Assembly: GCF_024320785.1 (NCBI RefSeq)
Contig: NZ_JANDBC010000001.1
Location: 1,370,001-1,434,000, forward strand
DNA length: 64,000 bases
Direction of reading: 5' to 3'
Source of the DNA: Gracilimonas sediminicola
Lineage (GTDB): Bacteria; Bacteroidota; Rhodothermia; Balneolales; Balneolaceae
Position numbers and translations under genes: made by a program. This document shows positions 1,409-32,009 of this stretch, in pieces. A model generated the notes under the pieces. It worked only from the letters and a program-made list of their open reading frames with translations, searched no databases and was not told the DNA's origin. The stretch's first letter is position 1, and each line of letters starts with the position of its first letter.

Positions 1409-1599
1409 GTCTCCCTGTTTTGAATTCGGTTAATCAATCCACTAAAAATAACAGAAATGGAATAATTCCCGAATCTTTAAAAAACTGAAGTCATTTCTGC
1501 CTTTAAATTATCCCGATATTATTCCAAAAGGGACTGCGATTTGATTCATTCTTGCCTTATTTTGGCTTGATCGAATTTTAAATACCAAATCAGCTGTAA

Positions 1600-2892
1600 A
1601 TGAAGCAAGTATATGTAGGGATGGGTACAGATATTATCCATCACGGCCACATAAACATTATTGAAAAGGCAAGAGAGTTAGGGGAAGTGACCGTAGGATT
1701 ATTGTCGGACGAAGCCGTTACCAAATTCAGCCGCATTCCTTTCCTGGAGTATGAAGAACGAAAGCGTATTCTGGAAAATATCAAAGGCGTCAGCAAGGTT
1801 GTTCTCCAAAAAACACTGGACTATGAAGAAAACCTACGAAAGTTAAAGCCTGATTATGTGGTTCATGGAACTGATTGGAAAGTGGGCCCCCAGAAGCACG
1901 TCCGCCAGAAAGTTATCAGCATATTGGACGAGTGGGGAGGCAGGCTGGTGGAGCCGGATTATACCGAGGGGATATCATCATCCGGGCTTCGGGAGGCCTT
2001 ACGTGAAATTGGCACCACCCCCGATATCCGCAGAAAAATGCTGCGACGTCTTTTGTCGGCAAAGCCTATCGTACGGGTAATGGAAGCTCACAACGGCATC
2101 TCAAGCCTTATTGTTGAAGAAACTAAAGTAGAAGCCGAGGGTGAACTGAGAGAGTTTGATGCCATCTGGGTTAGCAGCCTCACCGACTCTACCGCAAAAG
2201 GAAAACCAGACACGGAATACGTGGACCGGACATCCCGAATTCAAACCATCAGCGATATTCTCGATGTAACCACTAAACCCATCATTCTGGATGGGGACAC
2301 CGGTGGACCCATTGAACACTTCGAGCTGATGGTAAAGAACATGGAGCGACTGGGAGTTTCTGCCGTCATTATTGAAGATAAATCCGGCTTGAAAAGAAAC
2401 TCGTTATTCGGAACTGAAGTGAAGCAGGAGTTGGAAGATATTGATGTATTCTGCGAGAAAATTTCCAACGCCAAGAAAGCTCAGGTAACTTCTGACTTCA
2501 TGATTATTTCCCGAATCGAGAGCCTGATTGCAAATGCAGGTATGGATGAAGCCCTGAAACGCGCGAAGGCTTACATTGAGGCTGGCACCGATGGAATCAT
2601 GATTCACAGTCGTAAAAAAGATGGCGAAGAAATCTTCGAGTTCATGAAGGAGTATCAAAAGTTTGATTATAAAGTGCCGGCCATTTCGGTGCCCTCTTCC
2701 TATAATCAGTTTACCGAGCAGGAGCTGATTGATGCCGGATTTAACATTGTGATTTATGCCAACCACCTGCTGCGGAGTGCATTCCCGGCGATGAAGAAAA
2801 CGGCTGAATCTATTCTTACTCACAAACGCTCACTTGAAGCGGACCAATACTGTATGTCGATCAAAGAAATTCTGGATATCCTTCCAAACTGA
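1600..2892 (+). CDS. aepX: Phosphoenolpyruvate mutase with N-terminal cytidylyltransferase-like domain
   Basis: First committed enzyme of phosphonate synthesis: rearranges phosphoenolpyruvate to phosphonopyruvate, making the C-P bond. Two domains are visible. Residues 1-140 are a nucleotidyltransferase of the glycerol-3-phosphate cytidylyltransferase type, with HHGH at 14-17 and ISSSGLR at 125-131. Residues ~150-430 are the mutase of the isocitrate-lyase superfamily, with DGDTGG at 231-236 and the PEP-mutase hallmark EDKSGLKRNS at 259-268, which separates mutases from the related lyases. The 430-residue length matches the fused AepX form known from some Bacteroidota. It heads a tight operon: 5 bp to the decarboxylase, then the transaminase. 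The N-terminal domain may activate a phosphonate or sugar with CTP; this is inferred. The mutase call is nearly certain. Confidence 0.96.
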   Translation: MKQVYVGMGTDIIHHGHINIIEKARELGEVTVGLLSDEAVTKFSRIPFLEYEERKRILENIKGVSKVVLQKTLDYEENLRKLKPDYVVHGTDWKVGPQKHVRQKVISILDEWGGRLVEPDYTEGISSSGLREALREIGTTPDIRRKMLRRLLSAKPIVRVMEAHNGISSLIVEETKVEAEGELREFDAIWVSSLTDSTAKGKPDTEYVDRTSRIQTISDILDVTTKPIILDGDTGGPIEHFELMVKNMERLGVSAVIIEDKSGLKRNSLFGTEVKQELEDIDVFCEKISNAKKAQVTSDFMIISRIESLIANAGMDEALKRAKAYIEAGTDGIMIHSRKKDGEEIFEFMKEYQKFDYKVPAISVPSSYNQFTEQELIDAGFNIVIYANHLLRSAFPAMKKTAESILTHKRSLEADQYCMSIKEILDILPN

Positions 2893-2897
2893 TACCT

Positions 2898-4022
2898 ATG
2901 CTAAAACCCGCTTTTTTATATGAACAGCTGGAGAAAAAGGGCGTCGAGTTTATGCTGGGCGTACCCGATTCCCTGCTAAAGCACTTTGGCTCTTACGCTT
3001 TTGATAAGGGTAATACCTTAATTGCTGCCAACGAAGGCGGGGCATTAGCAATTGCCTCCGGGTATCATCTTGCAACAGGAAAAATTCCGCTGGTTTACCT
3101 CCAGAATTCAGGCTTTGGCAACATTGTAAACCCACTTACTTCACTAACCGACGAGGAGGTTTACTCCATCCCCGCTTTGATTATGGTTGGCTGGAGAGGG
3201 AAGCCGGGAACCAATGATGAACCCCAGCACCTCAAACCCGGGAGAACTCAGGAAGAGCAATTGAAAGCTCTGGATCTACCCTACTCGATCTTGAGCAGCG
3301 ATGAACAGCAGGTAGAGAAACAGCTCGGTACGGCCTTTGATACCATGAGGAAGAAATCCTCTCCGTACGTGCTTCTGGTTCCCCCTGATACTTTTGAGAA
3401 GTATGCATTTCAGGGCGACTCCAAAACCCATTCATATTCATTGAAACGGGAGGAAGTGCTCGAGCAGCTCGTTCAGAAGTTTGGGGAGAAGGACATTATT
3501 GTATCGACCACCGGCAAAACTTCGCGGGAGCTTTTTGAACTGAGGAAAAAACACGGGCTCGGACACCACCGCGATTTCCTTACGGTAGGCAGTATGGGGC
3601 ACGCATCCCAGATAGCGCTGGGTATCGCTATGGAAAAGAAAAACCGGCGGGTATTTTGCATAGATGGTGACGGAGCTATGATCATGCATATGGGAGCTCT
3701 GGCGATTATCGGGGAGCAACAGCCTTCTAACTACTATCATATTCTGATCAACAATGGAGCACATGAGTCGGTTGGCGGCCAGCCCACTGCCGGATTCCAT
3801 ATAGACTTTGGAAAAATTGCAGAAGGCTGCGGATACAAACAAACATTCCGGGTAAGCGATCTCTCTTCTTTGAACGACAAGTTTGATGAGTTTGTGAATG
3901 CTGAAGGACCCGTTTTGTTGGAGATCATGACACAAACCGGAGCCCGCTCAGATTTAGGCCGCCCCACGCTTTCGCCCACAGAAAACAAGGAAAATTTCAT
4001 GCAATTTCTTTCAGAGGATTGA
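2898..4022 (+). CDS. aepY: Phosphonopyruvate decarboxylase
   Basis: A thiamine-diphosphate-dependent enzyme that decarboxylates phosphonopyruvate to phosphonoacetaldehyde, pulling the unfavourable mutase reaction forward. At 374 residues it has the short two-domain form of this family (PYR and PP domains without the central domain of larger ThDP enzymes). The probable catalytic Glu is E46 in AANEGGA. The ThDP/Mg signature runs from GDGA (257-260) to NN (285-286). HESVGGQPT (289-297) is typical of phosphonopyruvate decarboxylases and the related sulfopyruvate decarboxylases. The neighbours decide for the phosphonate substrate: PEP mutase lies 5 bp upstream and AEP transaminase 3 bp downstream. 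Cytoplasmic. Confidence 0.95.
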   Translation: MLKPAFLYEQLEKKGVEFMLGVPDSLLKHFGSYAFDKGNTLIAANEGGALAIASGYHLATGKIPLVYLQNSGFGNIVNPLTSLTDEEVYSIPALIMVGWRGKPGTNDEPQHLKPGRTQEEQLKALDLPYSILSSDEQQVEKQLGTAFDTMRKKSSPYVLLVPPDTFEKYAFQGDSKTHSYSLKREEVLEQLVQKFGEKDIIVSTTGKTSRELFELRKKHGLGHHRDFLTVGSMGHASQIALGIAMEKKNRRVFCIDGDGAMIMHMGALAIIGEQQPSNYYHILINNGAHESVGGQPTAGFHIDFGKIAEGCGYKQTFRVSDLSSLNDKFDEFVNAEGPVLLEIMTQTGARSDLGRPTLSPTENKENFMQFLSED

Positions 4023-4025
4023 CAC

Positions 4026-5114
4026 ATGCAGGATCTTGAACGAAAAATTTTACTAAACCCCGGCCCCGGAACCACCTCCCAAAATACAAAGGAAGCTCTG
4101 GTAGTGAATGACATCTGTCCCCGTGAAGGAGAATTCGGGGCGATCATGAATGAGATTGTGGACGGCCTGTTAGCAATCGGTAATGGGCAGGATGATTACG
4201 AAGCCTGCCTATTTGCAGCCAGTGGCACAGGAGCTGTTGAAGCCATATTGACTTCCGCCCTGGATGCTTCAAAAAAAGTGCTCATTGTTACCAATGGTGC
4301 GTATGGCATCAGAATGAGACAGATTTGTGAATCTTATCAGCTACCTCATGAAACCATTCATGAGTTTGGCGATTATCCTGACGTAAAAGCTATCCGACAA
4401 CGATTACAAGAAGGCGACTTTACGCACCTGGCTGTTATCCATCACGAAACTTCTACCGGCATGATGAATCCGCTGGAAGAATTCTGTGAACTTTGTGATG
4501 AACTGGATATCACCCTGATCGTGGATGCCATGAGTTCATACGGGGCCTATCCAATGGACCTGAAAAAGCTGAACATTGATTACCTCGCGGCTTCCTCCAA
4601 TAAATGCATTCATGGAGTCGCGGGACTTTCGTTCGTGATTTTCAACAAAGAACAGATACAATCTCTCAAGAAAAGCTCCGGCAGCTTCTATTTTGACTTA
4701 TACAAACAGTGGAAGTATCTGAAGGAGAGCAATCAACTGCGCTTTACACCTCCGGTTCAGGTGTGCTATGCCTTTAAGCAAGCCATTGAAGAAACGCTGA
4801 AAGAAACAACGGAAAAGCGATGGGAGCGCTATCAAAGGAATTGGCAGATTTTATACGATGGGTTAAAGGAGCTCGGATTCGAATTTTACCTTCCTGATGA
4901 GCAGCAATCAAAAATTCTGATCGCTGTAAAACGTACCGGGATTCTTCCGAAGGGTTTTGACCATTTTCATGACGCATTGTATGAAAGAAACATCACCGTT
5001 TATCCGGGCGTTATACCGGAAACGGATACCTTTCGCATGGCAGTGATTGGAGATTTATTCGAAGAGGATCTGAAGTATGTAATTGCTGAGATTCGATCAT
5101 ACCTGAAAAAATGA
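4026..5114 (+). CDS. 2-Aminoethylphosphonate aminotransferase (PhnW-like)
   Basis: A class V PLP-dependent aminotransferase that should run in the biosynthetic direction here, converting phosphonoacetaldehyde to 2-aminoethylphosphonate (AEP). Family marks are LLNPGPGTTS at 9-18, ICPREGEFG at 30-38, and the PLP lysine K193 in SSNKCIHGVAG (190-200). D167 (IVDAMSSYG) should pair with the pyridine nitrogen. The 362-residue length is normal for PhnW. In catabolic operons this enzyme sits next to a phosphonatase; none is present here, and the gene directly follows the mutase and decarboxylase, so biosynthesis is the better reading (often called AepZ). The stop overlaps the start of the next gene (ATGA at 5111-5114), implying translational coupling. 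Confidence 0.94.
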   Translation: MQDLERKILLNPGPGTTSQNTKEALVVNDICPREGEFGAIMNEIVDGLLAIGNGQDDYEACLFAASGTGAVEAILTSALDASKKVLIVTNGAYGIRMRQICESYQLPHETIHEFGDYPDVKAIRQRLQEGDFTHLAVIHHETSTGMMNPLEEFCELCDELDITLIVDAMSSYGAYPMDLKKLNIDYLAASSNKCIHGVAGLSFVIFNKEQIQSLKKSSGSFYFDLYKQWKYLKESNQLRFTPPVQVCYAFKQAIEETLKETTEKRWERYQRNWQILYDGLKELGFEFYLPDEQQSKILIAVKRTGILPKGFDHFHDALYERNITVYPGVIPETDTFRMAVIGDLFEEDLKYVIAEIRSYLKK

Positions 5115-7522
5115 TGAGCTCTGTGAAGACGCGAAACATACTGTTCGTTCTTGTTATCGGTTACCTCCTATCTTTTGGGTTCTTATCGTACAGGGCATTG
5201 AACCTTCAGTTCAACGGCGAACTGATTGCCCTGCTTCCCGATGACAACAACCACCTTTCCACCTACAAAAAGCTCGAGCAGCTCAATTCAACCGAGGGAG
5301 GCTTTTCGCTCGTCATTCACTCGGATAATGGCGAACCGGTAATTGAGCCGGCCCATGCCATTCGCGATACCCTTTTGAAGCTTACAGCTAATGGAAAACG
5401 GATTTTCCGTGGAGCTGAATTAGAGAATGACCTATACGATATCCGGGAATCGGCTTTATTTTTAATGACGGAAAATGAGCTTGACCGGCTTTATGAAGAG
5501 GTGGATGAGTACGTTACGCAAAAGAAGCTGGAGGCCAATCCTCTGTACGTGGATTTTGAGAAAGATGGAGCTGAAGAACAACCCAATTTAGAATTAGGAG
5601 CCCTTTCTTCGGTTTTGCTTGAGGAAGTAGCCAATACCCGCCGCTACAAAATGAATGAAGATAGCTCGGTCATAAGCATGCTGTTTTTGCCGGACTTTCC
5701 GAAAAGTGATTATACAAATGTGGAGCAAACCTACCAGCTGCTGCTGCAAAAGAAATCCGAGATCCAGCAGAATTACAACGGGTTGGAGCTGTTTTGGGGC
5801 GGCTCCTACGTAGATCACTACCACAAAATTAATGACATTCAGGCTTCCATCACCAAAGCGCTTATCATTGGCATCCTCAGCCTGATCGGCTTTCTTGTGG
5901 CGTACATGATACTTATTAACCGAAAGTCGGCATATAAAGCCGGGTATATCTTGCTGGATCTCGGGCTGATGTTTTTTGTGTTATTCTCCGGTTTCATCAT
6001 TTCCATTGGCCTGTCTTCATTTTTGTTTAATGAAATCAATGTATTTACGGGCATTATTTTCAGCATTCTGTTCGGCATTAACCTGGACTATATTCTGCAC
6101 CTGTATTCAGCGAATAAGCAGCACCCACCGAGTCTGACCTCCATTCGCAGGTTGTTATCGTCCTACCTCTTTTCAACCCGCCCCATTCTTTTAAGCTGCC
6201 TTACGACCGGACTCGCAATTATGAGCCTGATTTTTGCAGAGTTCAACGGGTTCATCCAATTCGGCATCATATTTTTTATCAATATTTTGGTGAACCTCTT
6301 TTCTACCTACCTGTTTTTGCTCTTTTCTCCTTCTGTTTCAAAACGCACGGCCGGCAATCAGGAGTCAGTGAGTTTACTGGATGGGTCTTTACCCGGCCTC
6401 AGCAGACGAACCCGATCTGTGGCACTTCCTTTACTGTTGACTGTAATTTCCATAGGTGCTTTTTTCGGGGCCCGGTCGCTTAGTTTCAACTTTAATTTTT
6501 CTGATCTGGAGCCCGATTCCGGCCCTTCCGCCTTCGATTCATTCAACTCAGAGACCGAAGAAGGAGGTGGCTACCATGAGCCCTCCTACTTTATCACCGA
6601 TAACATTCAGCAGTCAAAAGACTTGTTTTTTGAAATCAGCGAAGGTATTGGGAATGAATACAAAGATATTGAACGAGTGGAATCTTTCTCAACCCGCTAC
6701 CCGGTAAGTGAGCAAGAGTTAAGTATGAAATCCCGGAAAGTAGCAGGCATTCAGCAGCTTTTAACGAATAATGAAGAGTTTCTCGCAAATCTTGATCCCG
6801 AAGAAAAGGAAGTGATCGAGATCGCAGAGAATACGGTTCCCCCCACTATTGAGACCCTTCCCAATTATATAAAAAACCGATTCTTCTTTAAGGATGGCTC
6901 CATTGCCCCTCTTGTGATTATCTACCCTGCCATGAGTTTGTCGAACGGAGAAACTTCCATTCAGTTTAGAAAAAGCTCCGGCTCTATCCGTATTGATTCC
7001 GGGAAAACATTTTATGCCGCCAGTACTTCTATTATTGCATCCAGCATTTTAGAGCTGTTGATCCGCGAATCCACCTTTCTGTTTGTAGCTCCTCTTCTTA
7101 CAATTTTTGGAATCCTTTTGGTTTACTACCGTTCGTTATTGCAGGCTTTGATGGCAGTCGCTCCACTACTGATTACGATAGGTATGCTGCTCACCATCCG
7201 GTCTGTTTTTCCTTTCGATATCAACCTGTACAATGTCATCGTTTTCCCCATCATCATCGGGGTGGGCGCTGATAATGGAATTCACCTGGTGGATTCCTGG
7301 ATCAAAAATAATTCAGGGTTCTTGTCCTATTTTCTGTCGGAGCGTTTTCCCGTATTAGCAGCCTGCTCAGTAACGACCATCTTAGGTTTTATAGGGCTCA
7401 TGTTTATAGATCATCCCGGGATGGAATCGGTAGGCATACTTGCCATAGCGGGGATTACCACCACGTTACTGGCCACTTATTTTACTGCACTTCTGCTGCA
7501 GACGTACGTTCTAAAGAAGTAA
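5111..7522 (+). CDS. RND-superfamily exporter, MMPL/HpnN-like
   Basis: An 803-residue transporter with the duplicated RND layout: one helix near residues 8-28, a large extracytoplasmic loop to about 245, five helices to about 405, then a second half with a helix near 437-452, a second soluble loop, and five helices from about 650 to the end. It belongs with the MMPL and HpnN type exporters (COG1033), which move lipids and lipid-linked molecules to the outer envelope, rather than with drug pumps that need a separate adaptor protein. It is the fourth gene of the AEP operon and overlaps the transaminase by 4 bp, so its cargo is plausibly an AEP-containing lipid; this is inference from position. 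Two adjacent ATGs (5111, 5114) could start it. Its 3' end overlaps the convergent CDP-alcohol phosphotransferase by 41 bp. Confidence 0.88.
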   Translation: MMSSVKTRNILFVLVIGYLLSFGFLSYRALNLQFNGELIALLPDDNNHLSTYKKLEQLNSTEGGFSLVIHSDNGEPVIEPAHAIRDTLLKLTANGKRIFRGAELENDLYDIRESALFLMTENELDRLYEEVDEYVTQKKLEANPLYVDFEKDGAEEQPNLELGALSSVLLEEVANTRRYKMNEDSSVISMLFLPDFPKSDYTNVEQTYQLLLQKKSEIQQNYNGLELFWGGSYVDHYHKINDIQASITKALIIGILSLIGFLVAYMILINRKSAYKAGYILLDLGLMFFVLFSGFIISIGLSSFLFNEINVFTGIIFSILFGINLDYILHLYSANKQHPPSLTSIRRLLSSYLFSTRPILLSCLTTGLAIMSLIFAEFNGFIQFGIIFFINILVNLFSTYLFLLFSPSVSKRTAGNQESVSLLDGSLPGLSRRTRSVALPLLLTVISIGAFFGARSLSFNFNFSDLEPDSGPSAFDSFNSETEEGGGYHEPSYFITDNIQQSKDLFFEISEGIGNEYKDIERVESFSTRYPVSEQELSMKSRKVAGIQQLLTNNEEFLANLDPEEKEVIEIAENTVPPTIETLPNYIKNRFFFKDGSIAPLVIIYPAMSLSNGETSIQFRKSSGSIRIDSGKTFYAASTSIIASSILELLIRESTFLFVAPLLTIFGILLVYYRSLLQALMAVAPLLITIGMLLTIRSVFPFDINLYNVIVFPIIIGVGADNGIHLVDSWIKNNSGFLSYFLSERFPVLAACSVTTILGFIGLMFIDHPGMESVGILAIAGITTTLLATYFTALLLQTYVLKK

Positions 7523-8432
7523 GATCCCAGTCTTCAATCTCATTCAGAATTCGCCGATCTACCTGATTTTGCTTCTTCCCAACTAAAAGATATAGCCCGT
7601 AAGAGGCGATATTCGCAATTACATAGATGTCGATGCGCCCAAACAAACTGGATACCAGGATTCCATTCCGCATTACATTAGAACCACACACCCAAGCCCA
7701 TCCTGCCAGCATTTTTCGACTATTGCGCTCGTAGATTTCTTTGAATTTTTGAGGATCCTGCTCCCTCGCTTCTTCAAAGATTCGGGTTGTTTCATCGCTT
7801 CTGAATTTGATCTTGTTTTGTCGCTTCACATAATCAATCAAGACGGGATAGGTAACCTTTCGAAGCAGAGAAGATGTTCTGTCAAAATTTTCTTTGATGT
7901 GATCAACGGGCGGATTCCGGTGTTTGGAATCTGTCAGGCTAAAGTGAAGGAACTCCCCTTTATAATATTCATACAAGTTCGATTTGATACTGTGTACATA
8001 ACCGGAAGTAAGCCCCAAAGCTAATATACCGGCAAGGGTGTATGTATCCGTAAAATAGAGCAACCCGAACAGATAGCAACTGATAAAAACCAGCATATCA
8101 TTAAAGAAATCGAGGTACTTCCCCATTTCCGATCGCTGATCATAAATACGGGCCGCTTGTCCGTCTGCACTGTCCATCAATCCTGCAAAAGTAACCAGCA
8201 CAAACCCGATGGAAGTGTACAACAGAACATCCTGCCAATACAGTAAAACCCCTCCGGTTACCCCGATCAGCATCCCCAAAACAGAAATATTGGTGGGAGT
8301 AAATTTTAGCTTATGAAAAAACTTGGCAAGCACATACCCACAAGGGCGACTGAAATAAAGATCATAACCTTCCTCAACAATTCTATTCTTAATCGACTTG
8401 TCGTACTCGCTGAAAAAACCCTTCGAAGACAT
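7482..8432 (-). CDS. CDP-alcohol phosphotransferase family enzyme
   Basis: An integral membrane enzyme that displaces CMP from a CDP- or CMP-linked donor. The full family signature D-x2-DG-x2-AR-x8-G-x3-D-x3-D is present: D87, D90, G91, A94, R95, G104, D108, D112. The N-terminal 45 residues and a long soluble insert (about residues 160-245, with many charged residues) make it larger (316 residues) than PgsA or Pss types; a separate PgsA-like gene is at 31416-32009. Next to an AEP operon and not far from a PntC-like gene, a likely role is moving AEP from CMP-AEP to a lipid alcohol such as diacylglycerol, giving a phosphonolipid. Inositol- or glycerol-type acceptors remain possible. It follows the PLD-family gene by 6 bp on the same strand. 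Confidence 0.9.
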   Translation of the reverse strand: MSSKGFFSEYDKSIKNRIVEEGYDLYFSRPCGYVLAKFFHKLKFTPTNISVLGMLIGVTGGVLLYWQDVLLYTSIGFVLVTFAGLMDSADGQAARIYDQRSEMGKYLDFFNDMLVFISCYLFGLLYFTDTYTLAGILALGLTSGYVHSIKSNLYEYYKGEFLHFSLTDSKHRNPPVDHIKENFDRTSSLLRKVTYPVLIDYVKRQNKIKFRSDETTRIFEEAREQDPQKFKEIYERNSRKMLAGWAWVCGSNVMRNGILVSSLFGRIDIYVIANIASYGLYLLVGKKQNQVDRRILNEIEDWDLTSLERTSAAEVQ

Positions 8433-8438
8433 CTATGG

Positions 8439-9431
8439 TTATTTATTTATTAACTGTGAGGTAAATGAAGTTAGCTGTTTTATCAGTTCAGGATTTTTAT
8501 TCACTATTACCACTTCCTTTTCAAAAAAGTAACTGATGACATCAAAATTTGAAGACCCGTACACAGCTACTTCGTCATCTAAAATAAGCATTTTTGCATG
8601 AACCATTTTCCCTGATACGTATTTAAAATTTATTTCAGAATACCGCTTAAGGTTATGTATATAATGCATTAGCGGTTTGTTATTCGCCTTCGGAAGGATC
8701 ACCTGATTATCCGGAACAGAGGCAATCGCATCCAGCATGGGGTAAGAGATATAGGGTGAGAGCGCAACCACCTTACTACTGGAAGTAACGCGCTCCAATA
8801 AATTTGTATAAGCTTCCTTTGTCTTCCACCCGTTTAACAGGTAGAGCACTGTCTTCGGGTTAATTTCTGTAATTGGTGGGGGCGTTGTCTCATTCAGGTC
8901 TGCCTGAAATGATACCTTGAGCGCAGCTGCGATATCGGGGTTGGTATGGCGAACCATGGTATCACTCCACTCAAAATTATGTTCCGTAAAATTCATCCCA
9001 CCCAGATAGGATATCTCCTCATCGACCAGCACCATTTTTTTATGATTCCTGGCCGGATACCGGTGCATCAAAAACCCCATGGGATTGGTGAATTTTACCC
9101 GAATTCCGGACTGTCTTGCCTGCTTCAATAATCCGTCTAAAGCCTGCCGCTCTTTGCGGGCATTGTTTTTATTCATCCACCCCTGAGGTGCATTCAGAAA
9201 TGTATCATTCACAACAAACCGCGAATAATCGTCAATCAACAAAGTTCGTTCGAGGGTTGGCTTGCTGCCGAGCAATTCAATAAGTTTGGTGCCAACCTGA
9301 TCGGCCTCAAAACTCATGCATTGGATGGAAACTGAATGCCTGGCATTTTGAACATCAGCGGTTAGCTGCTCAAAAAAATGATCGCTATCCATAAAAACAC
9401 GGATTTCACTGGCAGCGTAATTTTTACACAT
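8439..9431 (-). CDS. Phospholipase D-family transferase (cardiolipin-synthase-like)
   Basis: Both HKD motifs of the PLD superfamily are present: H130-K132-D137 (NHKKMVLVD) and H278-K280-D285 (VHAKMLILD), each followed by the usual small-residue turn (GGMN and GSSN). The two-motif, 330-residue layout without long N-terminal membrane helices fits ClsB/ClsC-like cardiolipin synthases or a phosphatidyl/phosphonyl transferase. Cytoplasmic or membrane-peripheral. It is the first gene of a two-gene minus-strand operon with the CDP-alcohol phosphotransferase, so both probably act on the same polar lipid. The ATG at 9431 lies only 22 bp from the divergent glycosyltransferase start; an internal ATG at residue 14 (MDSDHFF, position 9392) would leave more room for a promoter and may be the true start. 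Confidence 0.88.
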   Translation of the reverse strand: MCKNYAASEIRVFMDSDHFFEQLTADVQNARHSVSIQCMSFEADQVGTKLIELLGSKPTLERTLLIDDYSRFVVNDTFLNAPQGWMNKNNARKERQALDGLLKQARQSGIRVKFTNPMGFLMHRYPARNHKKMVLVDEEISYLGGMNFTEHNFEWSDTMVRHTNPDIAAALKVSFQADLNETTPPPITEINPKTVLYLLNGWKTKEAYTNLLERVTSSSKVVALSPYISYPMLDAIASVPDNQVILPKANNKPLMHYIHNLKRYSEINFKYVSGKMVHAKMLILDDEVAVYGSSNFDVISYFFEKEVVIVNKNPELIKQLTSFTSQLINK

Positions 9432-9453
9432 ATACTATCGACGCGGTTTTAAT

Positions 9454-10596
9454 ATGAATATCATTCAGGTGTGCCCTTACGATTTATCGATTCCCGGAGG
9501 GGTTCAGACCCATGTTACGCAATTAAGTAACGAATTAGTGAGGAAAAATAACAAGGTGGTGATTTTTGCGCCACGGCCAACCAATCCCAACTCAGAAAGA
9601 GAGGCAGACTGCGAGGTAAAGCATATAACAAGCAGTACTCGTATTCCCTGGTGGGGAACCTCCATTGATGTATCGGTGCTGAAACCGAATGAAAAAAGCC
9701 AGATCCGCCAATTTTTTGATGAATTTAAGCCGGATGTCATCCACTTTCACACTATCTGGAATCCGGTGATGCAAACCCAGCTACTTTGGATGTTACCGGA
9801 CTCGATAAAGAAAGTTGGCACCTTTCATGATACCCCACCTGATCGTGGGCTGGGTAAACATATCGGTGCAAACCTGATGAAAGTGGGAGCCAAATACTAC
9901 CTCCCCAAAATGGATGAAATCATTTCTGTATCCGAAACTCAGGCGAAAGCCATGGGTGGTGACCCAGAGAACCTTCCCCAAAACTTTAGAATTCTGCCCA
10001 ACGGGATTGATGCTGAAGCCGGCCAAAATATGGAAAAGAAATCAACCCCTGACGATGACTTCAGGATCATTTTCATTGGTCGTTTTGAAAACAGAAAGGG
10101 TGTCTTTGAGTTGCTGGAAATCTACCGGAGATTACAAAGTGAATCGCTAAATCAAAAAATTTCACTCACTTTAGTAGGGAATGGTCCTCAGCTATCGGAG
10201 ATGAAGAATTTTGTAAATGAGCATCAGTTGAAAGAAGTGACTTTCCATAACGATGTAGATGATCAGGATAAAAACCGGCTGTTACTGAATTCCGACCTTA
10301 TGATTGCTCCTGCATTGTATGGAGAAAGCTTCGGAATTGTACTGCTGGAAGCGATGGCACTTGGTGTACGAGTGATCGGGTATGGAAATGAAGGATACCT
10401 GAACATTGGAAAGAAATATGGTGTTGAAAACTTTCCGTCACCCGGAGACACTGAGGCCCTTTTCGAGTTGGCAAAACAGCACCTGAAGATGCCTGCCGAA
10501 GAGCAAAGCATTCTCATAAAAAAAGGATTGGAAATAGCTTCTAAACACGACTGGAAACTGATTGCCCAACAAATTGAACACATTTATTCACGATGA
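9454..10596 (+). CDS. Glycosyltransferase family 4 (PimA-like)
   Basis: A GT-B fold retaining glycosyltransferase. The N-terminal acceptor half begins with NIIQVCPYDLSIPGGVQTHV, the layout seen in GT4 enzymes of the phosphatidylinositol-mannosyltransferase type. The junction has LPNGID (181-186). The nucleotide-sugar site carries the E-x7-E pair E291/E299 (ESFGIVLLE). At 380 residues it is full length. It likely adds a sugar to a membrane lipid or lipid-linked glycan at the inner face of the membrane; the donor and acceptor cannot be read from sequence. It is followed with a 1-bp gap by the LicC/PntC-like nucleotidyltransferase, tying it to the AEP-decoration pathway. Confidence 0.92.
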   Translation: MNIIQVCPYDLSIPGGVQTHVTQLSNELVRKNNKVVIFAPRPTNPNSEREADCEVKHITSSTRIPWWGTSIDVSVLKPNEKSQIRQFFDEFKPDVIHFHTIWNPVMQTQLLWMLPDSIKKVGTFHDTPPDRGLGKHIGANLMKVGAKYYLPKMDEIISVSETQAKAMGGDPENLPQNFRILPNGIDAEAGQNMEKKSTPDDDFRIIFIGRFENRKGVFELLEIYRRLQSESLNQKISLTLVGNGPQLSEMKNFVNEHQLKEVTFHNDVDDQDKNRLLLNSDLMIAPALYGESFGIVLLEAMALGVRVIGYGNEGYLNIGKKYGVENFPSPGDTEALFELAKQHLKMPAEEQSILIKKGLEIASKHDWKLIAQQIEHIYSR

Positions 10597-10597
10597 A

Positions 10598-11326
10598 ATG
10601 GAGATAAAAACAGCAATTATATTAGCTGCAGGTAAAGGCACAAGGCTGAGAAGCGTAACCGGTGACGAAATCCCGAAGCCTTTAACCCCGCTAAAAGAAC
10701 AACCCCTAATTGAGTACTCTATACAAGCATTGAGAAGTGCGGGGGTTCAAAAGATTTTGATCGGTTGTGGTCATTTGCTGCCAGAATTCAACTACCTGGA
10801 GAAAAAGTATAGTGAAGTCGAGATCGTTGAGAATCCATTTTACGATACCCGGGCCAGCATTTACACGTTGCTGATGTTTGAGTCGCTAGTGGACGAGCCA
10901 TTCTATTTACTGGAAGCCGATATTTTGTTCGAACCCACCATTTTTGAACGGTTCACCCCGACAGATGACAATCAAAACCTGATTCTCACCTCTGCCCCCC
11001 TGAATCTGGACGACAATGTGTATTTCAGTTCCGAGGCGGGCCGGCTGACCAAGCTCACAAAAAATGCTGAGAAAATAGTGGATCCGGAAGGAGTAATGAC
11101 TGGAATATGGGCTTTTTCCGCTGGGTTTATGAAGCGATTTACCACATTCTGTAAACAGATTAACATCGATTACAGTGAGGATTACGAAGTGTTATTGGCA
11201 CAGTACTCATCAGAGCAGGAGGCTATTAGTATTGCTCATTTCCCGGAACTGAACTGGTGCGAAATAGATAATGAAGATCACCTTGAGTTTGCCCTGACTG
11301 ATGTGTTGCCAAAAATCATACAATGA
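10598..11326 (+). CDS. LicC/PntC-like cytidylyltransferase (candidate CTP:AEP)
   Basis: A 242-residue NTP-transferase fold protein. The nucleotide loop is LAAGKGTRLR (9-18), followed by PKPL at 26-29. An acidic metal position is D108 (LEADIL), and the C-terminal signature W-x-EID-x2-DHL (W220 to L229) is shared by LicC, PntC and related phosphocholine, phosphoethanolamine or AEP cytidylyltransferases. Known PntC makes CMP-AEP from CTP and AEP. With an AEP operon 5 kb away, CMP-AEP is the most economical product, though phosphocholine or a sugar phosphate cannot be excluded. I start it at the ATG at 10598, 1 bp after the upstream stop; a longer frame from the TTG at 10562 would only add residues overlapping that gene. 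A LicD-family transferase faces it downstream. Confidence 0.85.
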   Translation: MEIKTAIILAAGKGTRLRSVTGDEIPKPLTPLKEQPLIEYSIQALRSAGVQKILIGCGHLLPEFNYLEKKYSEVEIVENPFYDTRASIYTLLMFESLVDEPFYLLEADILFEPTIFERFTPTDDNQNLILTSAPLNLDDNVYFSSEAGRLTKLTKNAEKIVDPEGVMTGIWAFSAGFMKRFTTFCKQINIDYSEDYEVLLAQYSSEQEAISIAHFPELNWCEIDNEDHLEFALTDVLPKIIQ

Positions 11327-11363
11327 TTTTCCGGTTGAAGTTCTGCAGAGGGCTCAACTAACC

Positions 11364-11963
11364 CTAAGGCTTTTCCCAGTAGCCTGTTTCAGGGTTTCGA
11401 ACTGCATCCTTATCCAAACAGCCATAAATAGTTTTCAGGTACGCTTCGGTTTTGTCAGGTATGCGTGTTTGCAGCCCCCGAATCTCGAAGTCTTTGGTCG
11501 GAAACACCAAGTCCTTCAGGCTTGGAGAATTATAGTTTTCCCAGTCCGTTTTTTCCGTACTGAATAATTGATCTCCTTCCTCTCTGTAAAAATAGATGTC
11601 AGCATCAAAACCCTTATAACTCATATACAGTTTAGGGCCGTTATGCCGGTTAGAGGTATCATGCATAGTAAGTTCCGCAGGCAGCTTATCCAGATTATCC
11701 AAAATATAGGGATAGTGTTTCTCATGGCAACCATAATCGATATCGATATCGTGGGCAATGATATCATTCTCCCTGTAAAAGCCCAGCAAAGTGCCGAAAT
11801 CAACCCAATAATCTACCTTTATATCCTGTAAAAACCGGTTGGAAGACTCGAACAGCTCCCAAAGTATTTGTTGCCTTAAGTCTCCGTTATTCATTCTCGT
11901 ATGAACTAATCTTTGAGTATATTCCTGCAGTCGTCTGAAATGGTAACTTATGGGGTTTAACAA
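11364..11963 (-). CDS. LicD-family phosphotransferase (candidate AEP transferase)
   Basis: A small nucleotidyltransferase-fold protein of the LicD/fukutin family. The core is VDFGTLLGFYR (54-64) followed by the acidic metal motif HDIDID (71-76: D72, D74, D76). LicD enzymes move phosphocholine, phosphoethanolamine or similar groups from a CDP/CMP donor to a sugar of a surface glycan. Convergent with the candidate CMP-AEP synthase and within a polysaccharide locus, it may attach AEP to the glycan; that substrate is inferred. The start is TTG at 11963, supported by a perfect Shine-Dalgarno (AAGGAGG) 5 bases upstream. At 199 residues it is shorter than classical LicD (~265), close to the minimal domain. 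Confidence 0.85.
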   Translation of the reverse strand: MLNPISYHFRRLQEYTQRLVHTRMNNGDLRQQILWELFESSNRFLQDIKVDYWVDFGTLLGFYRENDIIAHDIDIDYGCHEKHYPYILDNLDKLPAELTMHDTSNRHNGPKLYMSYKGFDADIYFYREEGDQLFSTEKTDWENYNSPSLKDLVFPTKDFEIRGLQTRIPDKTEAYLKTIYGCLDKDAVRNPETGYWEKP

Positions 11964-11968
11964 AAAGT

Positions 11969-11975
11969 CCTCCTT
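11969..11975 (-). promoter_or_regulatory. Strong Shine-Dalgarno that fixes a TTG start
   Basis: On the minus strand AAGGAGG lies 5 bases before the TTG at 11963. No ATG or GTG is better placed, so this ribosome binding site decides the start of the LicD-family gene. It also sits inside the 23-bp divergent gap to the Stealth gene, so any promoter for each gene must overlap its neighbour's leader. Confidence 0.8.
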
Positions 11976-11986
11976 ATAATCACTGA

Positions 11987-12883
11987 ATGAATTTTGATGT
12001 AGTTTACACGTGGGTCAACGGATCAGATCAAGAGTATGCAAAAATCCGTGATGCCTATGCATCCAAAAAAAAAGACACCAATCCTGAGCGCTATCGTGAC
12101 ACCTTCCAAATGATCCGTTATAGCCTGCGTTCACTCGAAAAGTACTTTAACAGATTTAACAAGATATACATTTTAACAGCAAGACCACAGGTGCCCGAAT
12201 GGCTTGATGTAAGTAATGAACGAATTGAGCTAGTGCATCACGACCAGGTAATTCCGGATAAATATCTTCCCACGTTTAACTCAAATGTTATTGAAAGTTT
12301 TCTTCATAATATTCCCGGATTAAGCGAGAATTTTCTCTACATGAATGACGATTTTTTGTTTGGTGCCCCTGTTAGCCTGCAATCATTTTATAAGGATCAT
12401 AAGTATCGAGTGTACAATACCTTTTTTGGTGAAAATCTGAAATGGAGAATCCATGACGGATACAGAGATATTGTCGGATTGGGCATCATTGAACATCAGC
12501 CTATTATGATAAATAAGAAATACTGGAAAGAAGCCTTCTCGGTATTTCCCGACAAAACCGAGAACACCCGTCAGCATAAATTTCGGAATGACCGCGATTT
12601 ATTTCCTTTGAAGTTATATCGGTACCACATGCTGAAACATCACCGTAATGAATCGGACCCTGTATGGATTACCGAACTAATTAAAATCTTCAGATTTCAT
12701 AAATTGACCAATAATTTCAGCAAACAACAATCTTTCTTTGATAAAATGAAAAGGAACAGCCCGGAATTTTATTGCTTGAATGATGACCTCCGCGGCAATC
12801 CGAACCCAAGGGTTGTGGAGCTGGTGAAAGAGTTTTTGGAGCAGAAGTATCCGGCACCTTCTTCATTTGAATTAACTGATTAG
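11987..12883 (+). CDS. Stealth-family sugar-phosphate transferase
   Basis: Matches the Stealth family (capsule hexose-1-phosphate transferases such as SacB and CpsY). Conserved region 1 is DVVYTWVNGSD at 4-14. Region 2 runs from about 37 to 74, with RYSLRSLEKY and KIYILTARPQVPEWL. Region 3 spans about 99-128, with TFNSNVIESFLHNIPGL and the acidic NDDFLFG. The C-terminal part (about 190-298) is rich in His and Arg. These enzymes build phosphodiester-linked polymers by moving sugar-1-phosphate from UDP-sugars. It begins a five-gene plus-strand run ending in a Wzi-type protein, which supports a capsule or exopolysaccharide role. At 298 residues it is a compact member. Confidence 0.9.
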   Translation: MNFDVVYTWVNGSDQEYAKIRDAYASKKKDTNPERYRDTFQMIRYSLRSLEKYFNRFNKIYILTARPQVPEWLDVSNERIELVHHDQVIPDKYLPTFNSNVIESFLHNIPGLSENFLYMNDDFLFGAPVSLQSFYKDHKYRVYNTFFGENLKWRIHDGYRDIVGLGIIEHQPIMINKKYWKEAFSVFPDKTENTRQHKFRNDRDLFPLKLYRYHMLKHHRNESDPVWITELIKIFRFHKLTNNFSKQQSFFDKMKRNSPEFYCLNDDLRGNPNPRVVELVKEFLEQKYPAPSSFELTD

Positions 12884-12897
12884 TACACGCACCACTT

Positions 12898-14529
12898 ATG
12901 CGGTTTATCGCTTTACTTATAAAATCCTCAATGCCCATATTTCTGATATCCAGTATATCCAGTGCATTGACGGGACTGTGTTCAACTTTCTTAATAAAAA
13001 CAATACATCAGGCGGTTACATCTGCTGAATTTACCTTAGATCAGTTCCTGTGGAATTTCGGTTTATTTGCTTTGGGGTATATGATTTTTGCCTTCATAGC
13101 TTCTTACTCGGTATCAAAGCTCATCCAATCGATTGTCCATAAACTTCGTGAAGATCTCTCCCGCAAAATCCTGAAAGCTTCTTTTGAATCGGTTGAAAAA
13201 AAGCAGCCGAAGCTTCTGGCAATCCTTACGGAAGACATCAAAACAATTGCCTACTCGCTTGACCGACTCCCCGGTGTAACAACCGGCATCGCTACTGTTT
13301 TGGGGATTGTGGCCTATCTTGTGTTTTATTCTCCAATCCTAACCGTTGCAACAATTGTACTATTTGCCCTGGTCTTTCTATTTACGAAAGTCACCTTACC
13401 GTTCGTTAAAAAATATTCTGACCTGGCCCGTGAACAACTCAACGATTTGTACCAGCATTTTGAAGGCTTAGTGTTTGGAATAAAAGAACTCACATTAAAT
13501 AAAGATTTCAAAGAGTCTTACTTGAATAAGGAGATTATCCCTACGAGCAGGATACAGAACCTGCATGCCCTGAAAGAGAATGTTATTGCTTCTTTTTCCA
13601 ATCGCATGACGGATATCGTATTGCTTATGGGTTTGGGGGGAATGATAATCGCTATTTATAAAACCGGTTTTGTTGATTTGGAGTTTTTTGGGCAATACCT
13701 GACACTCGTTTTATTTACGCTGGCCCCTCTATCCACAGCAAGTGGCTTTTTAAGCAATTTGAAGCGTATCGAAACCGCCCTGGAGCAAATAGAATCGATT
13801 GGCCTTACAATGGATAACACCGATGGCTCTATAAATGAAATTACATTAGATGACACAAAAACCGGGCTGCCCCAAATTGAGTTAGAAGCAGTAGTACATC
13901 AGTATCTCAATGATGATGGAGGGAAAGTATTTGAGCTTGGGCCGATTGACTTAAAAATTAATCAAGGTGAAGTAATCTTTCTTGTAGGGGGAAACGGTTC
14001 CGGTAAAACCACCCTTGCAAAAATTATTACAGGCTTATATAAACCGGTGGGTGGCAATCTTAAGTATTACGGTCAGCCTGTTAACGACCGAAACCTGAAG
14101 CACTACCGTTCACATTTCGCCACCGTTTTTTCGGATTCGTATGTATTTGATCACCTTCATCATATCTCTGTAGGAAAAGTTGACAGAGAAGGTGATTATT
14201 TGATTGAATTGCTGGAACTAACTGATAAAGTTTCTATCGTTGAAAACAGATTCACCACAAAAAAGCTTTCGGATGGCCAACGAAAAAGGCTCTCATTAAT
14301 TCAGGCTATACTCGAGGATAAGGATATATATTTGCTGGATGAATGGGCTGCTCATCAGGATCCACACTTCAAGACTATCTTCTATAACAAGATTATTCCC
14401 TTCCTTACCGAAAAAAGGAAAACAGTTATCGTAATAACACATGATGACCGGTATTTTGATACCGCGAATCGCGTGGTAAAAATGCAAGATGGGAACATTG
14501 CAGCAAAAGACTCACTCGTTACTAAATAG
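12898..14529 (+). CDS. ABC transporter, fused permease-ATPase, cyclic-peptide-export type
   Basis: A half-size exporter: six-helix membrane domain over about residues 5-290, then an ATPase. Walker A is GGNGSGKTT (364-372), Walker B ends in LLDEW (D481, E482), the signature is KLSDGQRKR, and the switch histidine is in ITHDD. The tail LDEWAAHQDPHFK is characteristic of the PvdE/SyrD branch (cyclic peptide export ABC transporter), not of MsbA or of Wzm/Wzt capsule exporters. Here it lies inside a polysaccharide run: 14 bp after the Stealth gene and 10 bp before a glycosyltransferase-like gene. It may flip a lipid-linked glycan unit or export a small modified molecule. Cargo unknown. Confidence 0.9.
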   Translation: MRFIALLIKSSMPIFLISSISSALTGLCSTFLIKTIHQAVTSAEFTLDQFLWNFGLFALGYMIFAFIASYSVSKLIQSIVHKLREDLSRKILKASFESVEKKQPKLLAILTEDIKTIAYSLDRLPGVTTGIATVLGIVAYLVFYSPILTVATIVLFALVFLFTKVTLPFVKKYSDLAREQLNDLYQHFEGLVFGIKELTLNKDFKESYLNKEIIPTSRIQNLHALKENVIASFSNRMTDIVLLMGLGGMIIAIYKTGFVDLEFFGQYLTLVLFTLAPLSTASGFLSNLKRIETALEQIESIGLTMDNTDGSINEITLDDTKTGLPQIELEAVVHQYLNDDGGKVFELGPIDLKINQGEVIFLVGGNGSGKTTLAKIITGLYKPVGGNLKYYGQPVNDRNLKHYRSHFATVFSDSYVFDHLHHISVGKVDREGDYLIELLELTDKVSIVENRFTTKKLSDGQRKRLSLIQAILEDKDIYLLDEWAAHQDPHFKTIFYNKIIPFLTEKRKTVIVITHDDRYFDTANRVVKMQDGNIAAKDSLVTK

Positions 14530-14539
14530 AGCATAAACC

Positions 14540-15373: not shown

Positions 15374-15374
15374 T

Positions 15375-16352: not shown

Positions 16353-16419
16353 CTACTCTTTAATATTGATATAAACGGGCTATCATTCTAACCTGACTTA
16401 AACATTTTTTGAAACTCAT

Positions 16420-17988
16420 ATGTCAAACAACTATTCAACCAAAAATCGAGTGCTAAAAACTACTACATACCTATTCACGATATTTTTGTCCCTTACATTA
16501 AGTTCCGGTGTTTTAGCGCAGACTATTATTCTTGACCAACAAGACCTGCTCGATAATTACGAAAACTCCTGCTACGATGACCACATAAGCTTTTTCCCTT
16601 CTATCGCTTGTACTGACGATATTAAAGGCTATTTCAATGTTTTGCCATTTTACACAAACACCGTTTATAATTCTGAATATGCCAGAGGCTTGAATGATGG
16701 TCCTGCCTGGCAAGGTAAAGGAGTGAATTTTACTACAGCTTTTGGTTTTTCCGGAAGGTGGGGTAATCTCACTTACGTTTTTAACCCTATCATTCAATAC
16801 AACCAGAACCTCCCATTTAATACCGGTGTGCAATACACTAGTCGTAATAATCCATACCAGTATCCTTTTGATGACATTGATTATGTAATTAGATACGGAG
16901 AAAGTTCAGATGTAAAACTCTATCCTGGTCAAAGCGAAGTTGCACTGTCTCTCAATAAAATAAAGTTTTCACTGTCCACCCAAAATATGCGCTGGGGTCC
17001 TGCTATTTATAACCCCATTCTTATGAGCACTAACGCAGGTGGCTTTCCTCACTTCAGGATTGGAACCAATGAAGTTTTGGAAACCTCTATAGGTGACATT
17101 GATGGCCAAATTATTTGGGGGTTAATTGATGAGTCTGAATACTATAATGACAACCCTGGAGATGACCAACGATATTTAACGGGGATTACTTTAGGATACA
17201 GCCCTCATTTCTTTAAAGAATTTTCTGTAACCGTTCACCGTGTATTATATACTCAAACCCGATACCTCACTGGTTTCTTTGATAATGGGTTAGCCGTTTT
17301 TTCGGGCATAATTGCCCCTGACAAGGGTAAAACAATTAAAGGTCGGTATTTCCCAAATGATGTCTACGATCAAATGATGACCCTTTCTATGAAATATAAA
17401 AATATAGATGACCGATTCGGTTTATATTGGGAATGGGGTTGGGGTGATTTTGCTGCCGGAATTTCAAATTTTCTCGAGCATCCTGATGATGCCGGTGGAT
17501 ATACCATTGGGTTGTGGAAAGAATTTACCCTGTCTAATGCTAATAGATTCCGTCTACTATTTGAACATAATGATCTTGCAACCTGGGATATACGATATAC
17601 TGCCGGATATGGCCCCCCTTCTTTTTACATCCATCGTATAAATAGGCAAGGGTACACTAATAACGGTCAAATTATTGGGGCGTCGATAGGGCCCGGTGGG
17701 AATTCAGATGAAATCCGACTCACCTATTTTTGGGATGAATCTTCTTTATCTCTGGAATACCAGCGCACCCGATTTAACGATGACTACTTTTTTACTCAAG
17801 TCGCCGGGAATCAAAAAAGGCCATTTGACCTGGAACATCACGTAGGCTTTCAATACACCAGCAAACAATTCAACAAGCTTACATTTAATGCTGCCTTTTT
17901 TACCGGGATTAGAAATAACTACCTGTATCAAGACCCTATTTTAAAAGTAAATATACACTCGAAGGTCGCATTTAGATATCATTTCTAA
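16420..17988 (+). CDS. Capsule assembly outer-membrane protein, Wzi family
   Basis: A 522-residue secreted protein with a signal peptide (about residues 1-34, cut near VLAQ) and a mature part of alternating short strands typical of an outer-membrane barrel, ending in the aromatic KVAFRYHF. QNMRWGPAIYNPILMS and GGFPHFRIG are the core of the Wzi/CapsuleAssembly family. Wzi anchors capsular polysaccharide to the outer surface. It ends the plus-strand glycan run (67 bp after the last glycosyltransferase) and is convergent with metK. Its presence argues that the product of this locus is displayed on the cell surface. Confidence 0.88.
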   Translation: MSNNYSTKNRVLKTTTYLFTIFLSLTLSSGVLAQTIILDQQDLLDNYENSCYDDHISFFPSIACTDDIKGYFNVLPFYTNTVYNSEYARGLNDGPAWQGKGVNFTTAFGFSGRWGNLTYVFNPIIQYNQNLPFNTGVQYTSRNNPYQYPFDDIDYVIRYGESSDVKLYPGQSEVALSLNKIKFSLSTQNMRWGPAIYNPILMSTNAGGFPHFRIGTNEVLETSIGDIDGQIIWGLIDESEYYNDNPGDDQRYLTGITLGYSPHFFKEFSVTVHRVLYTQTRYLTGFFDNGLAVFSGIIAPDKGKTIKGRYFPNDVYDQMMTLSMKYKNIDDRFGLYWEWGWGDFAAGISNFLEHPDDAGGYTIGLWKEFTLSNANRFRLLFEHNDLATWDIRYTAGYGPPSFYIHRINRQGYTNNGQIIGASIGPGGNSDEIRLTYFWDESSLSLEYQRTRFNDDYFFTQVAGNQKRPFDLEHHVGFQYTSKQFNKLTFNAAFFTGIRNNYLYQDPILKVNIHSKVAFRYHF

Positions 17989-31415: not shown

Positions 31416-32009
31416 CTAATTGAATTCTGCTCCGCTCATAATCAGGCGGTAGCGATTAAAGTAATCGATCCAGGAGATAATCATTAATGTGAGTGAACAT
31501 GCCATCAAAAACATATGGACGCCTCCGGCATCCGGAAAGAAAAACACCGCGATCCAGTACAAGGCTAACACGTTCACAGAAATTTTTCCGGACATGATAG
31601 CCATGGCCACCTTATCGTATTTCTTTTTGATATAGTACGAGCCCAGCATAATCATACTGTCCCGGATTACCGCAAATATCAAAAACCAAAGGGGAATCCA
31701 TCCTATCCACACGGTGTACACGAAAAGAACGAGAGCACACAGCTTATCGGCAATCGGGTCAATCATCTTGCCCAGTTCTGAGATGGTGTCGGTCTTTCGG
31801 GCAATAAAACCATCCAGATAATCGGATATCACTCCATATACAATTAATACCATAATAGCGGTATTCACCTGTAAATCGTTCAGGTAATGTAAATAGACCA
31901 CCGGAAAGGCCACTAAAATACGGCTGAACGAAATGGTATTGGACCAGGTAAATACCCGTCCTGTAACCTCCACTTTCTTTCCGTCTATATTTTTGGTTGT
32001 ATTAGCCAA
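31416..32009 (-). CDS. CDP-alcohol phosphatidyltransferase, PgsA-like
   Basis: A 197-residue membrane protein with the full signature D63-x2-D66-G67-x2-A70-R71-x8-G80-x3-D84-x3-D88. Length and the DYLDGFIAR form fit phosphatidylglycerophosphate synthase (PgsA), which joins CDP-diacylglycerol and glycerol 3-phosphate. About five membrane helices are visible. It is 11 bp upstream of ftsY on the same strand, so both may be co-transcribed. Its presence suggests that the larger enzyme at 7482-8432 is not needed for ordinary phosphatidylglycerol synthesis. Confidence 0.88.
   Translation of the reverse strand: MANTTKNIDGKKVEVTGRVFTWSNTISFSRILVAFPVVYLHYLNDLQVNTAIMVLIVYGVISDYLDGFIARKTDTISELGKMIDPIADKLCALVLFVYTVWIGWIPLWFLIFAVIRDSMIMLGSYYIKKKYDKVAMAIMSGKISVNVLALYWIAVFFFPDAGGVHMFLMACSLTLMIISWIDYFNRYRLIMSGAEFN

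Follow-up and report, generated by a model that had tools for sequence, protein, structure and literature searches.

Why do genes for the synthesis of 2-aminoethylphosphonate (AEP) lie next to membrane lipid enzymes and an RND-type protein? The question is raised by a locus of Gracilimonas sediminicola (Balneolaceae) in the window, i.e., the whole stretch of 64,000 nucleotides analyzed here (assembly GCF_024320785.1, contig NZ_JANDBC010000001.1, positions 1,370,001 to 1,434,000). For positions 5111-9431, an earlier note had proposed that an AEP-lipid is made in the inner membrane by the CDP-alcohol phosphotransferase (CDP-AP) and moved outward by the RND protein; in this model, CMP-AEP would donate AEP to the lipid as its headgroup. 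Comparison with related loci leads us to favor another reading, to which we give a probability of about one half: the core of the locus would be a machine for an inositol glycolipid, with AEP as an accessory decoration, and the RND protein of the MMPL family would move the product. This reading is carried by the genes that accompany CDP-AP in other genomes and by Cytophagales loci that hold the inositol and the AEP genes together. The genes concerned are, in window coordinates:

1600..2892, plus strand: PepM, phosphoenolpyruvate (PEP) mutase with N-terminal cytidylyltransferase-like domain (TIGR02320 404.9 bits, cut-off 319.55; PF01467 57.9 bits)
2898..4022, plus strand: Ppd, phosphonopyruvate decarboxylase (TIGR03297 472.6 bits, cut-off 312.5)
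4026..5114, plus strand: AEPT, AEP aminotransferase (TIGR03301 372.3 bits, cut-off 360.8)
5111..7522, plus strand: RND/MMPL protein of 803 aa, lipid exporter candidate (PF03176 22.5 bits, cut-off 20.5)
7482..8432, minus strand: CDP-AP of 316 aa, proposed CDP-inositol : lipid phosphoinositol transferase (PF01066, CDP-OH_P_transf, 41.4 bits, cut-off 22)
8439..9431, minus strand: protein of the phospholipase D (PLD) superfamily, 330 aa (PLDc_2, PF13091, 80.2 bits, cut-off 27; PF00614; two HKD motifs)
9454..10596, plus strand: GT4 glycosyltransferase, PimA-like, candidate phosphatidylinositol glycosyltransferase (PDB profile and single-sequence search)
10562..11326, plus strand: PntC-like CTP:AEP cytidylyltransferase, which should make CMP-AEP (best PDB match 6pd1; homologues start at ~10598)
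11364..11963, minus strand: LicD-like transferase, candidate for AEP transfer from CMP-AEP (PF04991 34.6 bits, cut-off 22.6)

The reading frames of the earlier note lie where it had placed them, with Pfam matches above the cut-offs. The ATG of the MMPL gene (5111) overlaps the AEPT stop codon (5112-5114) as ATGA; the overlap behind the claimed translational coupling is thus observed, and the coupling itself may follow from it. CDP-AP overlaps the 3' end of the MMPL gene by 41 bp and forms with PLD, at a gap of 6 bp, a minus-strand pair that converges on MMPL, as had been described. The GT4 gene starts 22 bp from the divergent PLD start and lies outside the interval of the earlier note. Lipid-type enzymes thus do stand next to the AEP synthesis genes and an RND exporter candidate, and relatives of the same family keep this grouping.

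Genes that accompany CDP-AP

G and L numbers are our handles for the compared genomes (G000 is the genome of G. sediminicola itself) and loci. In a set of 57 genomes, own genome included, a CDP-AP orthologue (>140 bits) was found in seven, the copy of G048 being broken in the assembly. Using the Ekhidna protein as query (E<=1e-10), we detected a CTP:inositol-phosphate cytidylyltransferase (IPCT) in 7/7 of these genomes and in 9/50 of those lacking CDP-AP (Fisher 4e-5), whereas PepM was present in 4/7 and 8/50, respectively (Fisher 0.03); neither value is corrected for kinship. In two relatives of the same order, G040 and G048, the genes for GT4, PLD, and CDP-AP stand beside a gene for myo-inositol-phosphate synthase (MIPS; TIGR03450 401 and 371 bits, respectively, below the cut-off of 638) and a gene for an IPCT-like protein, for which 2xme is the top PDB match. 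No PepM match was found in either genome (the G048 assembly is 82% complete), and no AEP genes lie in the stretch read around the core of either. The core region of G040 also holds an HpnN-like MMPL gene.

A draw of 395 genomes from the phylum, taken to be the same one for the CDP-AP, MIPS, and PepM counts and used without phylogenetic correction, contained the CDP-AP family (profile E<=1e-25) in 36 genomes. MIPS was found in 29/36 of these and in 34/359 of the others (Fisher 4e-20), and PepM in 6/36 compared with 4/359 (Fisher 6e-5). Among the seven closest CDP-AP genomes (E<=1e-150), MIPS was present in all seven and PepM in five. Both therefore accompany the CDP-AP family, inositol more completely.

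A contig search with the single CDP-AP sequence returned nothing; with an alignment, it returned 13 loci. In five of the eight Cytophagales loci (L047, L049, L050, L051, and L053), PepM-Ppd-AEPT, GT4, PLD, CDP-AP, IPCT, MIPS, and serine palmitoyltransferase (SPT) lie in one stretch, and in six of the eight PepM is within the stretch available. For L048, L052, and L055, the contigs stop short of the inositol region; L047 lacks a PntC match. Because of these joint stretches, we infer that AEP and inositol may be carried by one molecule. A pure donor swap, in which AEP would replace inositol, was dropped since the Cytophagales loci hold both gene sets and the own genome has MIPS and IPCT. The stretch of Ekhidna lutea DSM 19307 (L050) adds a PF08557 sphingolipid desaturase, a ketoacyl synthase, FabZ, a GNAT protein, and an NAD-dependent epimerase, the latter two of which we take to be a ceramide synthase and a ceramide reductase. 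The Ekhidna SPT scores 607 bits against the NF047600 cut-off of 640.

The CDP-AP tree has 45 rows. It omits L102, L104, and L123 (no frame labeled CDP-AP), L038 of G048 (interrupted by unknown bases), L055 (<200 residues), and L045, L046, L048, and L054; L044, whose stretch shows no GT4, is included as a partial row. A split of 36 and 9 rows has support of 100/98, and the 36 consist of the window clade (15 rows, of which L043 and L100 apparently come from one genome) and a neighboring sister clade (21 rows). MIPS is in the stretch read of 16/21 sister-clade loci, and the two that were scanned, L105 and L113, hold a HAD hydrolase, LPG_synthase, an NTP transferase, and MIPS. One of the nine rows across the split is the CDP-AP of L130. 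It is next to PepM, Ppd, and an NTase-AEPT fusion, and no other CDP-AP was found directly within an AEP operon that lacks MIPS.

These data bear directly on the proposal that CDP-AP itself moves AEP. In its favor, the PntC-like gene, whose product should make CMP-AEP, is 2 kb from CDP-AP, AEPT and MMPL overlap, PepM is enriched with CDP-AP in the phylum draw, and in L130, whose genome has no MIPS match, a distant branch of the family is found within an AEP operon. Nevertheless, we consider this model unlikely for the window: the core occurs without a PepM match in G040 and G048, IPCT and not PepM is found in every CDP-AP genome of the 57, the sister clade is mostly linked to MIPS, the GT4 is PimA-like, and a LicD-like protein that tracks PepM is available as AEP transferase. 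Grouping L130, a long branch, with the window clade was rejected (p-AU 0.002). G004, a congener, is a further genome with CDP-AP and no PepM match. Its cluster is cut on both sides (L035 8402-13968): MMPL, CDP-AP, and PLD retain open frames, 22 residues are missing from the start of AEPT, and GT4 breaks off after residue 68; PepM and LicD are unmatched in the genome, and Ppd and PntC are not in the stretch read. This genome provides only weak evidence, since dN/dS on the cut cluster is uninformative, most synonymous distances being saturated, and the loss may be recent. Thus, lipid synthesis and export at the locus remain plausible parts of the earlier proposal, while AEP as a headgroup made by CDP-AP is not the best reading. 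What the comparison of sequences predicts for CDP-AP is an inositol lipid enzyme, the very case that the earlier note had named as speaking against its model.

L130 (G341) is, in our view, a better candidate than the window for a true AEP-headgroup lipid. Its compact operon (4525-10129) holds genes for Ppd, CDP-AP, and two fusion proteins, in which an NTP-transferase domain is joined to PEP mutase and to AEPT, respectively. In another arrangement, seen in L111 (7998-10653), a LicC/PntC-like NTP transferase comes directly after CDP-AP, and a ~345-aa gene of the class I/II aminotransferase family lies before CDP-AP. L116, L117, L119, and L126 are arranged likewise, the ~345-aa gene having been scanned in L111 only. 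Loci of this type perhaps serve a decarboxylase-fed phosphoethanolamine route.

The catalytic motif of the window CDP-AP, D87-x2-DG-x2-AR-x8-G-x3-D-x3-D112, is complete, and all its residues are invariant in 11/11 aligned rows. An AlphaFold2 model of the protein (pLDDT 83.8, pTM 0.77) was compared with known structures, giving Z 17.1 to AF2299 (rmsd 3.0, 208 residues), Z 15.0 to IPCT-DIPPS (rmsd 3.1, 187 residues), Z of about 13-14 to phosphatidylinositol phosphate (PIP) synthases, and Z 9.8-11.1 to choline/ethanolamine phosphotransferases. The modeled fold fits an inositol-lipid role and does not fix the substrate. The enzyme could also be a PIP synthase that makes phosphatidylinositol phosphate from CDP-diacylglycerol and inositol phosphate, with CDP-inositol used elsewhere. 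The Z values of the PIP synthases and their first rank by E-value in Foldseek, which returned no match at E<=0.001, agree with this, as does the position of the own IPCT gene near a PF04464 gene and not beside CDP-AP. We nonetheless judge it very improbable, given the higher Z values to AF2299 and IPCT-DIPPS, a PIPS family score of 31.5 bits against a cut-off of 170, and the fact that IPCT is next to CDP-AP in G040 and G048 and in one stretch with it in five of the eight Cytophagales loci.

Partner proteins and a proposed route

To PDB sequences, a profile of eight GT4 proteins matched PimA (4n9w/2gej) over the full length with 190 bits, the next match reaching 90 bits, and for the window GT4 as a single sequence PimA was the only PDB match at E<=1e-10. 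PimA is a phosphatidylinositol mannosyltransferase, and the window GT4 is a candidate phosphatidylinositol glycosyltransferase. The PLD gene goes with CDP-AP in 15/15 window-clade loci of the tree; in the stretches read of the 21 sister-clade loci, no PLD gene was labeled. Both HKD motifs are kept in the six aligned rows; the protein scores 80.1 bits against cardiolipin synthase TIGR04265 (cut-off 290), and its profile found no PDB sequence at E<=1e-10. Matches to the MMPL protein above 1000 bits occur in only 5/57 genomes, all with CDP-AP, the next best match having 330 bits. The name "MMPL/HpnN-like" used in the earlier note holds for the PF03176 family and only loosely for HpnN: the protein scores 100.7 bits against TIGR03480 (cut-off 751.85) and 52.2 bits against NF052374 (cut-off 1100), and is only distantly similar to HpnN, BstA, and HAE3.

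For the AEP branch, PepM, which contains the motif EDKSGLKRNS, as well as Ppd and AEPT exceed curated equivalog cut-offs (TIGR02320, TIGR03297, and TIGR03301, respectively). The PntC-like protein has as its top PDB match the nucleotidyl transferase/aminotransferase 6pd1 (E 7.5e-31), presumably the T. denticola PntC-AEPT structure. In T. denticola PntC, Glu104 and Glu196 touch the AEP amine (PMC6697681). Glu118 and Glu209 of the window protein align with them, and the pair is kept in 4/4 Cytophagales PntC rows of the alignment and not in the three IPCT rows. Judged from this best match and the two conserved amine-contacting residues, CMP-AEP is likely the activated form of AEP. LicD was matched in exactly the five PepM-bearing genomes among eight compared and in 0/3 without PepM, and the LicD-like protein is a candidate AEP transferase that would be the natural user of CMP-AEP. 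In G021, LicD is encoded at another locus, away from PntC; an argument that its absence beside PntC would make CDP-AP the user of CMP-AEP was dropped when LicD was found elsewhere in that genome.

We propose a route of five steps. CDP-inositol would be made by MIPS and IPCT, whose genes lie outside the locus, and from it the membrane-bound CDP-AP would move phosphoinositol onto the hydroxyl of a lipid, probably ceramide and possibly diacylglycerol, so that an inositol phospholipid would form without CDP-diacylglycerol. The PimA-like GT4 would then add a sugar to the inositol, and the PLD protein would act on the same lipid. In the fourth step, PepM, Ppd, and AEPT would yield AEP, PntC would convert it to CMP-AEP, and the LicD-like protein would place AEP onto the glycan. 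The enzyme types of this step are well supported; its target we infer, as we do the substrates, the shared end product, and the export by the window genes. Finally, the MMPL/RND protein may move the completed lipid outward, away from the inner membrane. By these steps, the phosphonate would be carried by a glycosylinositol phospholipid and would not be the headgroup of the lipid itself. A more specific claim is put forward more tentatively, i.e., that some Balneolaceae and Cytophagales make an AEP-decorated glycosylinositol phosphoceramide by a CDP-inositol (Kennedy-type) route, with RND export in Balneolaceae.

A possible separate glycan and the inositol genes of the own genome

Downstream of the AEP and lipid genes, the window holds genes that may belong to a surface polysaccharide, and further away a second enzyme of the CDP-AP superfamily:

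11987..12883, plus strand: Stealth-family protein (PF11380, PF17101, PF17102, and PF17103, each over cut-off)
12898..14529, plus strand: ABC exporter-type protein in the same-strand block (PF00005, PF00664)
16420..17988, plus strand: Wzi-like capsule assembly protein (PF14052 52.9 bits, cut-off 30.1)
31416..32009, minus strand: separate PgsA-like enzyme outside the module (PF01066 89.6 bits; TIGR00560 73.7 bits, below the cut-off of 109.1)

The PgsA-like gene, which the earlier note had pointed out, is real and is one of four PF01066 matches in the own genome. PntC, in turn, has Stealth, LicD, ABC, and Wzi genes beside it, which suggests that the locus may serve two separate products: CDP-AP, GT4, PLD, and MMPL an inositol glycolipid, and AEP, CMP-AEP, LicD, and Stealth the decoration of a capsule-like polysaccharide. 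PntC clusters have been tied to cell-wall glycans with LicD-like transferases (PMC6697681, as far as described there), and the cores of G040 and G048 have no AEP genes in the stretch read. Against two products stand the overlap of AEPT and MMPL in the window and the intermixing of AEP operon, core, IPCT, MIPS, and SPT in five of the eight Cytophagales loci. Two products seem to us possible, if doubtful. Nonetheless, AEP on a separate glycan is a serious rival because MIPS and IPCT of the own genome lie far away, beside polysaccharide genes.

The own genome encodes IPCT (2xme, E 1.8e-24) next to MIPS at C1:198.8-200.8 kb, and a second MMPL gene is close by. All 9/9 genomes of the same family with IPCT at E<=1e-22 have an MMPL gene on the same contig, no more than 3 kb from IPCT. 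In the interval that separates IPCT of the own genome from the second MMPL gene (L060 10614-12779, G000:C1), two proteins of 346-349 aa with signal-like N-termini and no Pfam match are encoded; in G021 (L068) and G004 (L069), one gene of similar size stands in the place of this pair. SPT, GNAT, and epimerase genes likewise form a locus in the own genome, and their products match the Ekhidna proteins at 46, 29, and 27%, respectively.

Several observations weigh against the reading of the locus as an inositol-glycolipid core decorated with AEP. The own MIPS-IPCT pair is 1.18 Mb from CDP-AP, and the IPCT locus lies near a gene for a PF04464 CDP-glycerol glycerophosphotransferase-like protein (L060 18422-19597, G000:C1), a flippase-type gene, and two sulfotransferase genes, so CDP-inositol could feed a polysaccharide. 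Furthermore, 9/16 IPCT-bearing genomes in the set of 57 lack CDP-AP, the IPCT matches in three of these nine being weak and partial; together with the neighbors of IPCT, this suggests that CDP-inositol probably has another use there. The own SPT scores 499.6 bits, below the NF047600 cut-off of 640, NF047600 still being its best family. No MMPL gene was found in any Cytophagales locus within the stretch read, and about 10 kb upstream of CDP-AP in L055 contain neither PepM nor a clear core GT4. PepM is itself enriched with CDP-AP, the remaining AEPT frame of G004 is still open, so that its PepM loss may be recent, and the similarity of fold gives no substrate for CDP-AP. The Wzi and ABC genes near PntC and LicD fit a capsule, and no HAD hydrolase was found among the 15 window genes (638 to 17985) that were scanned with Pfam.

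Relation to known systems

Mycobacterial phosphatidylinositol mannoside synthesis starts with a PIP synthase and PimA. The route proposed here resembles this start in using a CDP-AP for an inositol phospholipid and then a PimA-like GT4, and differs from it in the proposed use of CDP-inositol instead of CDP-diacylglycerol and in the involvement of AEP and probably ceramide. With the HpnN/MMPL lipid transporters, the window protein shares the RND family and a distant similarity far below the HpnN cut-off.

Heaver et al. (2022) predicted, without confirming it, an alternative CDP-inositol lipid cluster in Prevotella and Bacteroides vulgatus (PMC9246714). As far as that cluster is described there, its logic of MIPS, NTP transferase, and CDP-AP is also that of the loci studied here: its layout is found in sister-clade loci, and MIPS and an NTP transferase are next to CDP-AP in G040 and G048 and in the same stretch in five of the eight Cytophagales loci. 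Unlike the cluster in that description, the window clade adds the PimA-like GT4, PLD, and often AEP genes, the MIPS-IPCT pair of the own genome is unlinked, and the genes scanned include no HAD hydrolase. According to the same source, CDP-inositol is the precursor of dialkylether glycerophosphoinositol lipids in hyperthermophiles (PMC9246714), and the route itself is therefore not new to life. The Pnt clusters of Rice et al. (2019; PMC6697681), as presented there, share with the window PepM-Ppd-AEPT, PntC, and a LicD-like transferase, whereas the acceptor here appears to be tied to an inositol-lipid core and not to a glycan alone.

Trypanosoma cruzi carries AEP on the glucosamine of the glycosylphosphatidylinositol (GPI) core and, in some stages, inositolphosphoceramide as the GPI lipid (PMC8591177). 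The analogy is one of product type only, the enzymes compared here being bacterial. Among the papers listed in our searches of the open-access literature (PMC), we recognized none on this cluster or on a lipid of bacteria that contains AEP together with inositol. If our reading is correct, such lipids would match, in bacteria, the GPI-type lipids with phosphonate of T. cruzi while being made by a different gene set, and an AEP-bearing glycosylinositol lipid would have arisen outside eukaryotes. They would also show where some of the capacity for surface phosphonates predicted in Bacteroidota is used. In the Ekhidna lutea DSM 19307 locus, genes for ceramide, inositol, and a C-P bond group stand with a PimA-like glycosyltransferase as a near-complete set.

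At the upstream edge of the window locus, a DUF6962 protein (638-1408) is encoded divergently from PepM, and it occupies the same place in G007 and G005.

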